In this document: positions 46,103-52,134 of the stretch, one piece after another | How positions within the stretch are numbered: position 1 is the first letter of the stretch | Layout: each line of letters starts with the position of its first letter | Source of the DNA: Natronobacterium haloterrestre | Lineage (GTDB): Archaea; Halobacteriota; Halobacteria; Halobacteriales; Natrialbaceae | Direction of reading: 5' to 3' | Length of the DNA: 64,000 nucleotides | NCBI RefSeq assembly: GCF_900112205.1 | Contig: NZ_FOKW01000004.1 | Location: forward strand, 1 to 64,000 | Notes under the pieces: generated by a model | The model's input: only the letters and a program-made list of their open reading frames with translations | Database searches by the model: none | Told to the model about the DNA's origin: nothing | Position numbers and translations under genes: made by a program

Positions 46103-46116
46103 CAATACTGTTATAT
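46103..46116 (+). promoter_or_regulatory. Shared promoter element CAATACTGTTATAT, copy 1
   Basis: Identical 14-mer to 49108-49121, 30 bp before ATG 46147 of the first solute-binding protein. TTATAT serves as TATA box. Conservation shows the two tandem units were duplicated with their promoter. Confidence 0.75.
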
Positions 46117-46146
46117 ATCAACGACGAAGAACCCCGAAGGAAGCGA

Positions 46147-48219
46147 ATGAATCGGAACGCCCTGTCCCCATCCTCGCCCTCCTCCCTCCCCGACGAGCGC
46201 GTGAGTCGTCGCTCCGTGCTCGCCGCCGCGGCCGTCGCTACAGTGCCGACGAGCGGCTGTGCTACCCGTGTCCGCAGCGTCGTCGACGATGGCGGCCCGC
46301 AACTCTCGCTGACGCTCGGTACCGTCCCCACCGACGACGACCGCGGCGCGATCCGGATCGCCCGCCACCTCGAGTCGACCCTCGAGGCCGTCGGCATCGA
46401 CGTGACGCTGGACGTCCGACAGTCCTCGGAGTTTCTCGAGGCAGTGTTGCTGGATCACGAGTTCGACCTCTTCGTCGGTCGGTACCCCGTCGACGGTGGT
46501 CCCGATCCCGACCCCGACTTCCTCTATGGAGCGTTGCACTCGCAGTTCGCGACCGAGGCCGGTCGGCAGAACCCCTTCGGGGTCACCGACATGGCCCTCG
46601 ATGAAGCCCTCGAGACCCAGCGTCGCGCCGACGGTCGGGAACGGCGGGGGGCCGTCGAGTCGGTACTCGCGTACGTCGCCGAACGGAAGCCGTTCGAACC
46701 GATCTGCCGGCCGATCGAGCACCGCCTCGCCCGGCCCGAGGCGATCGACGGCTGGGCGGACGGCTGGCTCGGCACCGAACTCGACTATCTCGGCCTCGAG
46801 TCCGTCGGTACCGCGGGCGACGGCTCGGCGGATCGCCTCCACGCGCTCCTCCTCGATTCTCGCCCGTCCCGGAACTGCAACCCCCTCTCGGTGACGATGC
46901 GAGACCGTGACGTGATCGTCGACCTCCTGTACGACTCGCTTGGCGCGGTCGAGCGCGAAACCGGCACGATCCGGCCGTGGCTCGCGGATCGGTGGGAGTG
47001 GGAATCGAAGCCGGAACCGAACCACGATGGAACCGGCTCCCCTCGGCGGACGACCGCGACGGTTACGCTCCGGGAGGATGCACACTTTCACGACGGCGAA
47101 CCGATCACCGCCGCGGACGTCGCCTTCACGTACCGGTTTCTCGCGGACACCGCCCTCGGTAACGCCCCCGTCCCTTCGCCCGCACCGCGGTACCGGGGAC
47201 GCGTCGCCGCGGTCGACGACGTCGAGGTTCGCAGCGAAACCGAACTGTCGATCACGGTCGATGCCGGCTCCGAGGTCGCAAACCGGATCGCGACGGTTCC
47301 GATCCTCCCGGAACACGTCTGGATCGAGCGGCTCGCCGAGTACGGCGTCGATCCGGACCGCGGCCTCGAGGACGAGGCCGAAAATACCCTCGACACCAAT
47401 CCCGGGCTCGAACCAGGGTACGAATCGGAACCGGACGACGAGAAAGCCGCCGTCTCGGCCCCGCAGGGGCGCTGGGGGCCCGTCGCGGGCGACGTCGAAC
47501 CGATCGGGAGCGGCCCGTACCGGCTCGCCGACCGGTCGGAGCGTGATGGAATCACGCTCGAGCGATACGAGGGACACTTCGCAGTACCCTCGTTCCCGGA
47601 CGAGAGCGCGGACCGAGACGGGAATACGACCGCGACTATAGACGAAGACGGGCCGAACGACGAAACCCACGGACGGACGGAGAGCGACGGGAGCGGCGAG
47701 GACGGGGCGCAGTCCGACACTCCCACAGCCTCGATCGACGAGTTGTACTTCGACATCGACCCGAGCAGCGCGTCCGCGATCCAGCGAACCGTCGCCGGGG
47801 ACGCCGATCTGACGGCGTCGATGCTCGAGGCCGACGCGCTCGATCGGATCCCGGCGGCGGCCGACGCCGACGGCTCGGTCCGCCGCCTCGAGGCCCGCTC
47901 GCCGACGTTCTACTACCTCGGGTTCAACACGCGCCGGGGACCGGTCGGCAACGTTCATTTCCGTCGTGCGGTCGCCCACCTGATAGACAAGGCCTGGATC
48001 GTCGACGACGTCTTCCACGGCGAGGCCGACCCGATCGTAACGCCAGTCGGAGAGGAGTGGCTCCCCGACGCGGAACCCGATCTGACGTGGGATGGGACGG
48101 ACCCGGTCGCCCCGTTCCCCGGCGAAGAGGGCGAACTCGACGTCGAGGCCGCTCGAGCGCTGTTCGAAGACCGCGGGTTCCAGTACGACGAAGACGGTCG
48201 CCTGCTGCGGCGGTACTGA
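46147..48219 (+). CDS. SBP family 5 (peptide/nickel-type) solute-binding lipoprotein, copy 1
   Basis: A 690-aa protein with a twin-arginine lipoprotein signal: SRRSVLAAAAVATVPTSGC (about residues 20-38). The mature part is an extracytoplasmic family-5 solute-binding protein (SBP_bac_5), with the recurring HFHDGEPITAADVAFTYRFL segment (about 318-340). No permease or ATPase gene is nearby, which is unusual. It is followed 18 bp later by a PAP2 gene, and the same pair is repeated downstream. An acidic Asp/Glu-rich insert lies around 495-530. Confidence 0.85.
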   Translation: MNRNALSPSSPSSLPDERVSRRSVLAAAAVATVPTSGCATRVRSVVDDGGPQLSLTLGTVPTDDDRGAIRIARHLESTLEAVGIDVTLDVRQSSEFLEAVLLDHEFDLFVGRYPVDGGPDPDPDFLYGALHSQFATEAGRQNPFGVTDMALDEALETQRRADGRERRGAVESVLAYVAERKPFEPICRPIEHRLARPEAIDGWADGWLGTELDYLGLESVGTAGDGSADRLHALLLDSRPSRNCNPLSVTMRDRDVIVDLLYDSLGAVERETGTIRPWLADRWEWESKPEPNHDGTGSPRRTTATVTLREDAHFHDGEPITAADVAFTYRFLADTALGNAPVPSPAPRYRGRVAAVDDVEVRSETELSITVDAGSEVANRIATVPILPEHVWIERLAEYGVDPDRGLEDEAENTLDTNPGLEPGYESEPDDEKAAVSAPQGRWGPVAGDVEPIGSGPYRLADRSERDGITLERYEGHFAVPSFPDESADRDGNTTATIDEDGPNDETHGRTESDGSGEDGAQSDTPTASIDELYFDIDPSSASAIQRTVAGDADLTASMLEADALDRIPAAADADGSVRRLEARSPTFYYLGFNTRRGPVGNVHFRRAVAHLIDKAWIVDDVFHGEADPIVTPVGEEWLPDAEPDLTWDGTDPVAPFPGEEGELDVEAARALFEDRGFQYDEDGRLLRRY

Positions 48220-48236
48220 CGGAGGGACGTACGGAT

Positions 48237-49064
48237 ATGTTCACCGAGATGTTGCTCCGCGTCGTCGTCGCAGTGGGCTGTCTCCTGCCGCTCGCGCTGG
48301 TCGCGTTCGTCGGGCGGGAGCGTCTCGCCTCCCTCCGGCGGGAGTGGCGCCAACGGCTCCGGGAGAGCGCGCCAGCCGTTGCGGTACTCGCCGTCGTTCT
48401 CGTCGTGAACCGGCTATTGCGATCCTCGGCCCCGCGTATCTCCGACGAGGTCGGCGTCCACATGACCTCTACGCTCTACGACCTCGAGGGCGAGTTCGTC
48501 TTCGTCTTCCAGTCCATCGAGACGCCGGCACTGACGGCGTATTTCTCGGTCGTTTACGTCTACGGTTACACGTTCCTGCTCGTCTTCCCGATCCTCGCGT
48601 ACGTCGCGCTGTCCGACACGGTCCGGTTACGGCGGCTCCTGGCGGCGTACGCGCTGAACTACGCGATCGGGCTGGCCTGTTACCTGGTCGTGATCGCGCT
48701 CGGCCCGCGCAACGTGATGCCCGAGGCGTTCGCCGAGACGATGCTGTACGATTCCAACCCGGAGTATCAGCATCTCACGCGACAGGTCAACCGCTACACC
48801 AACGTCTTCCCCTCGCTGCATACCTCGCTTTCGGCGACGGTCGCGATCTTCGCCTACCGGACGCGGTCGACGTACCAGGCGTGGTTTCCTGTCGCCGGTG
48901 TCCTCGCGGTCTCGGTCGCCATCTCGACGATGTACCTGGGAATGCACTGGGCGACCGACGTCGTCGCCGGGATCGTCCTGGCGGCCGTCTCGGTCGTGCT
49001 CTCGGTGTCCCTCGTGGGTCGGGGGTGGGCGTCGACGCTCCGCGAGCGGGTCGGACTCGAGTGA
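48237..49064 (+). CDS. PAP2-superfamily phosphatase, copy 1
   Basis: The 275-aa polytopic membrane protein starts at ATG 48237. Catalytic positions appear in NVFPSLHTSLSA (PSxH motif) and STMYLGMHWATDVVAG (HxxxD motif). The usual Arg after Ser in the last motif is Thr, and the pattern resembles the Aur1/inositolphosphotransferase branch (PAP2_3). It may dephosphorylate or transfer a lipid head group at the membrane. Coupling to a solute-binding protein is conserved in the duplicate downstream. Confidence 0.82.
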   Translation: MFTEMLLRVVVAVGCLLPLALVAFVGRERLASLRREWRQRLRESAPAVAVLAVVLVVNRLLRSSAPRISDEVGVHMTSTLYDLEGEFVFVFQSIETPALTAYFSVVYVYGYTFLLVFPILAYVALSDTVRLRRLLAAYALNYAIGLACYLVVIALGPRNVMPEAFAETMLYDSNPEYQHLTRQVNRYTNVFPSLHTSLSATVAIFAYRTRSTYQAWFPVAGVLAVSVAISTMYLGMHWATDVVAGIVLAAVSVVLSVSLVGRGWASTLRERVGLE

Positions 49065-49107
49065 CGGCCGCGTTGCGTTCGAAAGCCAAAGACCGGCCGT
49101 CCCAGCG

Positions 49108-49121
49108 CAATACTGTTATAT
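49108..49121 (+). promoter_or_regulatory. Shared promoter element CAATACTGTTATAT, copy 2
   Basis: Identical to 46103-46116, 38 bp before ATG 49160. The flanking bases differ between copies, so conservation is restricted to the element. Confidence 0.75.
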
Positions 49122-49159
49122 CACCCCTGGCGAACAGAGACAAACGAACGAGAGACGAG

Positions 49160-51208
49160 ATGTCAGAGCCCTCTCCTCCCTCCGCCGAGACGCCGCGTCG
49201 CGGTGCCGAGAGCGACCGCCGCGGCCGAGGTCCGACGACGAGCCGCCGCGCGATGCTCGCCGCGACCGGCCTGACGGCGGCGATGGCCGGCTGCGTTCGG
49301 GAAGTTCGCAACGCGGTCAACCGCGACGGAATCGACCAACTGTCGCTGACGATCACCACGCTGCCCGCCGACGGCGACCGCGAAAGTATCCAGCTCTCCC
49401 GGGCGATCCGGAACGCGCTCGAGGCGGTCGGCGTCGACGTCTCGATCGCGATGCGCTCCCACGAGGAGTTCCTGCGGGAGACGCTGATCAACCACGAGTT
49501 CGACGTTTACGTCGGCCGCTACCCGACCGGGACCGATCCGTCCTACCTCTACGAGGCACTCCACTCGCGGTACGCCGACGAGGCGGGCTGGCAGAACCCG
49601 TTCGGATTCACGAACCTCACGTTCGACCAGAGCCTCGAGCGCCAACGCGACGCCGGCGACGGCGAGCGACGCGACGCCGTCGCGGAGACGCTGTCGGCGT
49701 TCGCCGCCGAGCAGCCGTTCGTTCCGATCTGTGCGCCCCGGGAGTACCGGCTGGCCCGGACCGACCGCTTCGACGGCTGGGGGGATCGACACCCGGCGAC
49801 TCCGCTGGGATATCTCGGACTCGAGGCTCTCGACCGGGAGAACGGGAGTGGAAACGACGACAGCCGACTCCGGGCCGTCCACACGGACGCCCGCCCCTCG
49901 CAGAACCTCAATCCGCTGTCGGCCGAATACCGAAACCGGGGACTGTTCACCGGATTGCTATACGATACGCTCGCGGTCGATGCAGCCCTGCTCGAGGATT
50001 CGGGAGCCGAGTCGGACGGCGAGGATGGGGAGGACGGCGAGGACCGCGAGAACCGCGAGGACGGCGAGGATGGGGAGGACCGCGAGAACGCGGCTGAGGA
50101 GGATGAGGGAGACGAGGGAGAGACAGGGGACGAAAACCCGGACAGGGAAACCGATGCGAACGACGCCGATGCCACGGGACCCGACCTCCGCCCCTGGCTC
50201 GCCGACTCCTGGACCCTCGAGGACGACGTACTGACGGTACGGCTCCGCGAGGACTGTCCGTTCCACGATGGACGGCAGGTAACCGCCGACGACGTCGCCT
50301 TCACCTATCGGTTCCTCGCGGACACGACCCTCGGCGACGACCGGGTTCCGACGCCGTCGCCGCGCCACCGCGGCCAGGTCGCCCCCCTCGAGGCGGTCGA
50401 GGCGGCCGGCAACGACCGCGAGATCGCGTTCCGGTTCCGACGCTCGCTCGAGGACGCGAGCGCGGCGGTCGCTGGGGCGCTGACGGTCCCGATCCTCCCG
50501 GAACACGTCTGGCGAGAGCGGTCGGCGGCCGCCGACGTCACCGGCGTCCGCATCGCCGAAGGGGTCACCGAGGCGCTCGTCGTGGACAACGTCCCGCCGA
50601 TCGGGAGCGGCCCCTTCGCGTTCGCCGACCGAACGGACCGGGAACACGTCACCCTCGAGCGCAACGACGACCACTTCACGCTTCGCGAGGGCGTCGATCT
50701 CCCCGCGCCGACCGCGTCCGAGATGCGGGTCGCCATCGACCCCCGGAGCACGTCGGCCGTCGAACTCGTCTCCGACGACGACGCCGACGTTACCACATCG
50801 ACGCTGGAGAGCTACGTCCTCGACGACGTGATCGAGGCCGCCGACGAGGCCGACGACCTCGAGGTGCTCGAGTCGTCGCCGCGATCGTTCTACCATCTGG
50901 GTTTCAACGCGCGTAAAGCGCCGTTCAGCAATCCCCGATTCCGGCGAACGGTGGCCCGACTGATCGACAAGGCGTGGATCGTCGACGAGGTGTTCGACGG
51001 CTACGCCCGGCCGATCGCGGCGCCGCTCGTGGATCAGGAGTGGGTGCCGGACGACCTCGCCTGGGGCGGTGACGGCGACGGCGACCCCGCAACACCGTTC
51101 CTCGGACAGGACGGCGAGGTCGACGTCGAGGCAGCGCGGGCGGCGTTCGAGGCGGCAGGGTTCAGGTACGACACGAACGGCCGACTCCGTACACGGGTGA
51201 GTCGGTAA
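49160..51208 (+). CDS. SBP family 5 solute-binding lipoprotein, copy 2
   Basis: The 682-aa paralogue of the protein at 46147 has signal TTSRRAMLAATGLTAAMAGC (about 27-46, Tat lipoprotein) and the same CPFHDGRQVTADDVAFTYRFL segment. Between about residues 280 and 320 it carries a low-complexity Glu/Asp/Gly repeat not shared with copy 1 (DNA repeat at 50015-50080). ATG 49160 is chosen because it gives the complete signal; the open frame upstream is a shadow of the PAP2 gene. It ends in TAATG with the next gene. Confidence 0.85.
   Translation: MSEPSPPSAETPRRGAESDRRGRGPTTSRRAMLAATGLTAAMAGCVREVRNAVNRDGIDQLSLTITTLPADGDRESIQLSRAIRNALEAVGVDVSIAMRSHEEFLRETLINHEFDVYVGRYPTGTDPSYLYEALHSRYADEAGWQNPFGFTNLTFDQSLERQRDAGDGERRDAVAETLSAFAAEQPFVPICAPREYRLARTDRFDGWGDRHPATPLGYLGLEALDRENGSGNDDSRLRAVHTDARPSQNLNPLSAEYRNRGLFTGLLYDTLAVDAALLEDSGAESDGEDGEDGEDRENREDGEDGEDRENAAEEDEGDEGETGDENPDRETDANDADATGPDLRPWLADSWTLEDDVLTVRLREDCPFHDGRQVTADDVAFTYRFLADTTLGDDRVPTPSPRHRGQVAPLEAVEAAGNDREIAFRFRRSLEDASAAVAGALTVPILPEHVWRERSAAADVTGVRIAEGVTEALVVDNVPPIGSGPFAFADRTDREHVTLERNDDHFTLREGVDLPAPTASEMRVAIDPRSTSAVELVSDDDADVTTSTLESYVLDDVIEAADEADDLEVLESSPRSFYHLGFNARKAPFSNPRFRRTVARLIDKAWIVDEVFDGYARPIAAPLVDQEWVPDDLAWGGDGDGDPATPFLGQDGEVDVEAARAAFEAAGFRYDTNGRLRTRVSR
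50015..50080 (+). repeat. Imperfect 45-bp tandem repeat coding an acidic linker
   Basis: The 21-mer starting GACGGCGAGGATGGGG occurs at 50015-50035 and again at 50060-50080, within a run of GAG/GAC/GGC codons. The repeat encodes the Glu/Asp/Gly insert of the second solute-binding protein and likely varies by slippage. Confidence 0.7.
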
Positions 51209-52134
51209 TGCTTCTCGAGGTCCTGATCCGGCTCGTCGTCGTCGTCACCGTCATGCTGCTCGCCTCGACGGCCGCCTTCGTCGGCCGCTACCGGCTCCGG
51301 GACACGCGCCTCGAGTGGCGCGAGCGCGTACAGGAGGTCGCGCCGATCACGGTCGTTCTCGTAGCCGTATTGCTCGGGAACAGCGTTGCCAGACAGACGG
51401 TTCCGGACCTCTCGTGGATGATCGGCTGGGAGCGGACGGGACAGATCGAGGCCCTCGAGGGGTCGTTCATCGTCTGGCTGCAGTCCCAGGCGACCCCGGA
51501 GCTGACGGCGTATTTCTCGTTCAGCTACATCTACGCCTACGTCTTCCTGCTCGTCTTCCCGATCGTCGCCTACTTCGCGCTCTCGAATACGCGTCCGCTC
51601 CGGGAGTTGCTGGCGGCATACACGTTGAACTACACGCTCGGACTGGTCTGTTACGTCTTCGTGATCGCCTACGGTCCGCGAAACATGATGCCGGAACTGG
51701 TCGATGCCCTCCTGTACGACACGTACCCGCGATACCAGCACCTCACGCGGCAGGTCAACCGCAACACGAACGTCTTCCCTTCGCTGCACACGTCGCTGTC
51801 GACGACCGTCGCTTTCCTGGCGTACCGAACACGAGAGATCTATCCGAAGTGGGCCCTCGTCGCCCTCTGGATCGCGCTCTCGGTCGCCGTGTCGACGATG
51901 TACCTGGGGATCCACTGGGCGATCGACGTCCTCGCGGGCGTCGCACTCGCCTACGTGAGCGTCACCCTCTCCGAGTTGCTCGTCGGGCAGTGGTCGGTCT
52001 GGGACTGGCTCGAGAGCCGGGTTCCGTCCCAGTCCGAACCGAGCGGACAATCGGGAAAGCGGCCACGAGAGACGCGGGACCCCGAGCGCGACCGCGCCGT
52101 CGAACCGACCGATTCGAGCGGCGAGGACGGGTAA
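51208..52134 (+). CDS. PAP2-superfamily phosphatase, copy 2
   Basis: The 308-aa membrane protein is paralogous to the one at 48237: NVFPSLHTSLST, then STMYLGIHWAIDVLAGVALAYVS. It overlaps the solute-binding gene by one base (TAATG). A hydrophilic tail of about 50 residues rich in Arg, Glu and Ser (from about 258) is absent from copy 1. The substrate is not known; the pairing with a binding protein in both copies suggests joint handling of a phosphorylated solute or lipid. Confidence 0.82.
   Translation: MLLEVLIRLVVVVTVMLLASTAAFVGRYRLRDTRLEWRERVQEVAPITVVLVAVLLGNSVARQTVPDLSWMIGWERTGQIEALEGSFIVWLQSQATPELTAYFSFSYIYAYVFLLVFPIVAYFALSNTRPLRELLAAYTLNYTLGLVCYVFVIAYGPRNMMPELVDALLYDTYPRYQHLTRQVNRNTNVFPSLHTSLSTTVAFLAYRTREIYPKWALVALWIALSVAVSTMYLGIHWAIDVLAGVALAYVSVTLSELLVGQWSVWDWLESRVPSQSEPSGQSGKRPRETRDPERDRAVEPTDSSGEDG

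Follow-up and report, generated by a model that had tools for sequence, protein, structure and literature searches.

Solute-binding lipoproteins with a predicted circular permutation are paired with PAP2-family membrane proteins in haloarchaea

Described relatives and layout of the locus

Canonical solute-binding proteins (SBPs) of family 5, or cluster C, such as DppA, OppA, AppA, NikA and AccA, belong to the Pfam family SBP_bac_5, and in ABC importers of the peptide/nickel type the SBP gene has permease and ATPase genes beside it. A naturally circularly permuted ligand-binding protein, MglB-2 (Tp0684), has been described in Treponema pallidum and classified as 'Type Ic / Cluster Bc' (PMC4990184). 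Our literature search found no report of natural circular permutation in cluster C. There is also precedent for an SBP-like lipoprotein that guides glycosylation dependent on polyprenyl phosphate: mycobacterial LpqW governs the branch point at which the routes to higher PIMs and to lipomannan part, it assists the mannosyltransferase MptB, and its loss diminishes lipomannan/lipoarabinomannan synthesis and, in Corynebacterium, lowers MptB activity (PMC7261415, PMC3229680).

The SBPs described here share SBP_bac_5 with the canonical proteins but differ from them in a chain that is predicted to be permuted, in the lack of the permease and ATPase genes that accompany peptide/nickel importers, and in invariant motifs of their own. 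With TpMglB-2 they have in common a natural permutation in an SBP lipoprotein. Unlike them, TpMglB-2 is a glucose-binding protein of cluster B with another fold class, goes back to another permutation event and has no phosphatase partner; Pfam finds only family 5 in our SBPs, which speaks against membership in cluster B.

The locus comprises two SBP-PAP2 gene pairs arranged head to tail on the plus strand at positions 46103-52134 of the window, by which we mean the whole 64,000-nt stretch that was analysed (contig 21 of the 4.5-Mb genome G000). The first pair consists of SBP1 (46147..48219, 690 aa) and PAP1 (48237..49064, 275 aa), and the second of their paralogues SBP2 (49160..51208, 682 aa) and PAPB (51208..52134, 308 aa), the stop codon of SBP2 and the ATG of PAPB overlapping by one base. 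The preliminary description of this DNA had reported two such pairs with a family-5 binding protein, and both statements hold: the two SBPs score 151 and 150 bits against SBP_bac_5, far above the cut-off of 32.4. PAP1 and PAPB reach 64-68 bits against PAP2_3 (cut-off 27) and 44-48 bits against PAP2 (cut-off 27.2), which places them among PAP2_3-family membrane phosphatases/phosphotransferases. A twin-Arg motif was found in 69 and the lipobox Cys in 68 of 70 aligned relatives of the SBPs, which are thus confidently predicted to be Tat-exported, lipid-anchored lipoproteins. SBP2 also carries a long acidic low-complexity insertion with GEDGEDREN-type repeats (49988-50180), presumed to form a loop; SBP1 has other insertions at other places.

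Both pairs are preceded by the same 14-mer, CAATACTGTTATAT, which includes a TATA-like TTATAT. One copy lies at 46103..46116 on the plus strand, 30 bp 5′ of the SBP1 ATG, and the second, an exact match, at 49108..49121 on the same strand, 38 bp 5′ of the SBP2 ATG. When up to one mismatch was allowed in its first 13 bases, these were the only two sites in the entire 4.5-Mb genome. The 13-mer AATACTGTTATAT, with up to two mismatches, was located upstream of 17 of 24 SBP genes in the Natrialbaceae, nine of them exact; across the 1.75 Mb of sequence around these genes the same search gave 31 matches, those 17 included. Outside the Natrialbaceae it preceded one of 43 SBPs. Genome-wide uniqueness and conservation upstream of orthologues rule out a chance match as the source of the 14-mer and argue for a genuine promoter element that is apparently dedicated to these genes and conserved within the Natrialbaceae. 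The preliminary description had noted the shared element, and the copies are indeed identical; its dedication to these genes had escaped notice.

The tandem duplication, likewise reported before, is real, with 41% identity between SBP1 and SBP2 and 58% between PAP1 and PAPB. These values already indicate that it is not recent, a point missed at the time. In the SBP tree, SBP1 clusters with the first-position SBPs and SBP2 with the second-position SBPs of other Natrialbaceae genera, including those of Natronorubrum sulfidifaciens, and these separate groups, each with several genera, rule out a recent duplication. As Natronorubrum bangense also harbors the same four-gene array, the tandem array is judged from these comparisons to be old, retained and common to several genera of the Natrialbaceae. 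SBP-PAP2-SBP arrays devoid of the second PAP2 gene occur in two genera.

Predicted circular permutation and two branches of the lineage

In a genome scan with Pfam, the matches to the family-5 profile appeared in reversed order: in each SBP, the N-terminal part was matched by about positions 270-362 of the profile and the C-terminal part by positions 2-287. Profile-profile comparison with a template built from 24 canonical haloarchaeal SBPs gave the same swapped segments, permuted residues 225-587 aligning with template positions 54-378 and residues 41-197 with positions 366-528. Once the template was written twice, a single alignment of 492 columns covered permuted residues 41-587, with an increase in score from 344 to 421; canonical SBPs gained no score against the doubled template. 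The N-terminal segments that match the C-terminal part of canonical family-5 SBPs in the profile comparison are encoded on the plus strand at 46294..46806 in SBP1 and 49331..49831 in SBP2. A profile built from just this segment aligns to about residues 345-516 in solved SBPs, and the solved structures matched by the SBPs include AppA, DppA and AccA. AlphaFold models of the SBP reached a pLDDT of about 35 with single-sequence and four-sequence input alike. On the strength of the alignments, both SBPs are assigned as circularly permuted family-5 (cluster C) proteins in which the normally C-terminal third comes first. The preliminary description had rightly set the SBP apart from ordinary ABC components, the permutation itself having gone unseen.

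LpqW (PDB 2grv) was the third-best solved match of the N-terminal-segment profile, a weak one (E 1.1e-5) over 65 residues only, and was not in the best 60 for the full SBP profile. We claim no membership because the match is so short; it also lies at the canonical position near the C-terminus of LpqW, which, unlike the SBPs of the window, is bacterial, has GT-C mannosyltransferase partners and is not paired with PAP2. Any likeness would be a loose analogy in the way of working.

The same permutation is found in a second set of haloarchaeal SBPs, which differ from those of the window in having a DppB-type permease and no PAP2. Their representative in this genome (G000:C9:146121-147815) has the permease gene downstream, and so do most of its relatives in other haloarchaea. 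The PAP2-linked and permease-linked groups are colinear over 526 columns. In a tree of canonical SBPs and permuted proteins rotated back in silico, the canonical, the permease-linked and the PAP2-linked SBPs each occupied one side of a strongly supported branch, and with a midpoint root the two permuted groups adjoined each other. This topology agrees with a single permutation event, after which the lineage divided into one branch for transport and another linked to PAP2. Several positions are near-invariant in the PAP2 branch and absent or rare in the permease branch, namely the W, Q, P and F of GWQNPF, the motif PxDxD, T320 and R335. These branch-specific positions suggest that the ligand or the partner has changed.

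Pairing with PAP2 and absence of a transporter

The co-conservation of SBP and PAP2 in other haloarchaea, which the preliminary description had proposed to check, turned out to be very strong. In 60 regions from other Halobacteriales genomes, which contain 67 full SBPs, a PAP2 gene directly follows the SBP gene on the same strand in 58 cases. Of the remaining nine SBPs, four take the second SBP position in SBP-PAP2-SBP arrays and five are solitary; the pair is therefore not obligatory. Clustering of all neighboring ORFs in these regions yielded no other broadly conserved gene. At the level of whole genomes, 34 of 59 had matches to both proteins and 24 to neither; the single discordant genome, with an SBP match and no PAP2, is 76% complete. 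The Fisher p-value for joint presence or absence is about 1e-15 with the relatedness of the genomes ignored. Among sequenced plasmids, 12 records contain a PAP2 match above 200 bits, and a long, colinear SBP match occurs in exactly these 12. The records come from Natronorubrum, Halostagnicola, Haloarcula, Haladaptatus, Halobaculum, Haloferax and Salinigranum, and in the plasmid regions inspected SBP and PAP2 lie side by side, the Salinigranum SBP being annotated as two pieces.

It is very improbable, in our judgment, that the genes are merely co-transcribed neighbors brought together by chance of inheritance and lacking a joint function. The nine SBPs with no adjacent PAP2 and the related PAP2 proteins that are found alone would fit such an explanation, but the joint presence and absence is near-perfect and extends into several genera, where one species has both genes and another has neither, and the spacing between SBP and PAP2 is short or overlapping in distant families as well.

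The searches also brought up related genes and set the range of the family. The same genome carries a third, more divergent SBP-PAP2 pair (G000:C20:496695-499580) with orthologues in other Natrialbaceae, and a further PAP2 relative (G000:C9:111718-112476) that is 43% identical to PAPB and has no adjacent SBP among the matches listed; stand-alone relatives of this kind occur in other genomes too. In three genomes a solitary SBP is followed by a small ORF that looks dodecin-like by eye. A phylum-wide search of 247 genomes, with five candidates scored per genome, gave none outside the order among the matches listed, and no relatives were found in the viral contigs searched. In a scan of genome contigs with one protein as the query, the only close relative was that of Natronorubrum sulfidifaciens.

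No ABC permease is encoded in the window; on this contig, the closest BPD_transp_1 permease lies beyond the window at 75.4 kb, roughly 23 kb away. Every one of the genome's five further family-5 SBPs adjoins BPD permeases, versus none of the three PAP2-linked SBPs (the pair at 497 kb of contig C20 included). No permease is conserved beside the pair in the 60 loci, and a motif scan of the 60 regions found no ABC ATPases. The earlier statement that permease and ATPase genes are lacking nearby, and that this is not a usual ABC uptake system, thus stands for the window and extends to the other loci. Given this absence and the strong co-conservation, neither a neighboring transporter operon nor a lack of conserved pairs elsewhere speaks against the preliminary description.

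One of its suggestions, a phospho-solute scavenging unit, is supported by no uptake gene. In such a unit, the SBP would feed an ABC permease encoded elsewhere and PAP2 would dephosphorylate the nutrient before uptake. The genome does have several BPD permeases, and permuted SBPs can evidently serve transporters, since the sister branch is permease-linked. Against this stand the five SBPs that each have permeases of their own, the 60 loci devoid of a conserved permease, and the rarity or absence in the permease branch of GWQNPF and PxDxD, which points to a different ligand or partner. We regard scavenging as unlikely.

The PAP2 enzyme and a possible role in the envelope

PAP1 and PAPB share with PAP2_3/Aur1-like and PgpB-type lipid phosphatases/phosphotransferases the Pfam match, the catalytic His, His and Asp, and a C1-type Arg. 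Their nearest solved relatives are PgpB, YodM, AUR1 and LpxE. R156, H198, H240 and D244 are invariant in 30 PAP2 relatives and correspond to the Arg in GPRN, the His of PSLH, and the His and Asp of HWxxD. The active-site stretches that contain these motifs are encoded on the plus strand at 48702..48959 in PAP1 (GPRN ... PSLH ... HWATD) and at 51673..51927 in PAPB (GPRN ... PSLH ... HWAID). The classical motifs KX6RP and SRX5HX3D do not occur, GPRN and STMYLGxHWxxD standing in their place; the window's proteins thus differ from the PAP2_3/PgpB-type enzymes in a C3 motif that lacks the Arg of SRx5Hx3D, and also in their genetic tie to an SBP. Aur1-like proteins likewise deviate from the classical PAP2 motifs. 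From hydropathy and the distribution of charges, the active-site loops of the PAP2s are predicted to lie outside the cell. With the twin-Arg motif and lipobox of the SBP and these predicted outside loops, the SBP would lie on the side of the membrane to which the PAP2 active site is exposed.

The wider neighborhood hints at a similar location. In six loci, and on several plasmids besides, an arylsulfotransferase (ASST)-like protein and a PMT_2/GT39-type membrane glycosyltransferase adjoin the pair or a lone SBP. These loci are a subset outside the Natrialbaceae, and in Haloferax, one Haloarcula plasmid and Halobaculum the only such neighbor by annotation is the arylsulfotransferase-like one. 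This neighborhood is suggestive of lipid-linked chemistry on the outer face. The genome of the window gave no arylsulfotransferase match, so this glycan context is not directly applicable to it. Our literature search found no report on arylsulfotransferases in haloarchaea, nor any on haloarchaeal PAP2 proteins with lipoproteins or on dolichyl phosphatases. Separately, in eight loci, as well as in Haloferax gibbonsii, the gene immediately upstream of the SBP encodes a membrane protein with the motif WTAVQxHEEYWDWFRLRHTV. It matched no Pfam family, and an identity as LssY_C (PF14067) was rejected for want of a match at these loci.

Our preferred reading, to which we give an even chance, is that an orphan lipid-anchored binding protein works with an outward-facing PAP2 lipid-phosphate enzyme in the assembly of envelope lipids or glycans. 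Each pair would form one extracytoplasmic module in which the two proteins may be physically coupled. The SBP would be exported by the Tat pathway and anchored as a lipoprotein to the external face of the membrane. It would descend from a dipeptide/nickel-type (cluster C) binding protein that was permuted in a haloarchaeal ancestor, and service to a permease would have been lost in the PAP2 branch. Its ligand is probably a lipid-linked or sugar-phosphate compound, which it would present to its PAP2 partner or use to control it. The polytopic PAP2 protein, with its putative active site on the outer side, would remove or transfer phosphate on a lipid-linked substrate, for which polyprenyl or dolichyl phosphate and an archaeal phospholipid are candidates.

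A related explanation takes the SBP for a sensor whose ligand binding alters PAP2 activity as a signal, not as a biosynthetic step. It could draw on the orphan SBP adjoining a membrane protein, on the short dedicated promoter and on a paralogous duplication with divergence. We nevertheless hold it to be improbable, as the PAP2 proteins keep the full set of catalytic residues and no signaling gene is conserved nearby. The membrane-sensor and surface-lipid roles raised in the preliminary description are both close to the envelope-assembly reading that we prefer.

More tentatively, and with somewhat less confidence than we give to the envelope role, the genes may constitute a haloarchaeal receptor-enzyme system in which a permuted cluster C SBP, freed from its transporter, gates or feeds an outward-facing PAP2, the paralogous pairs, controlled by a promoter element of their own, being adapted to different ligands. 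The public records inspected annotate these proteins as 'ABC transporter substrate-binding protein', a name that would mislead for the PAP2-linked branch. The only natural SBP permutation found in our literature search, that of TpMglB-2, belongs to another structural cluster, and a large permuted lineage of cluster C with a transporter branch and a phosphatase branch would allow direct tests of how SBPs come to leave transport for other tasks. Through the strict pairing of SBP and PAP2, lipid-phosphate chemistry on the archaeal outer face would likewise become accessible to study. The pair suggests that many salt-loving archaea have turned a binding protein to a new use, the guidance of an enzyme at the cell surface.
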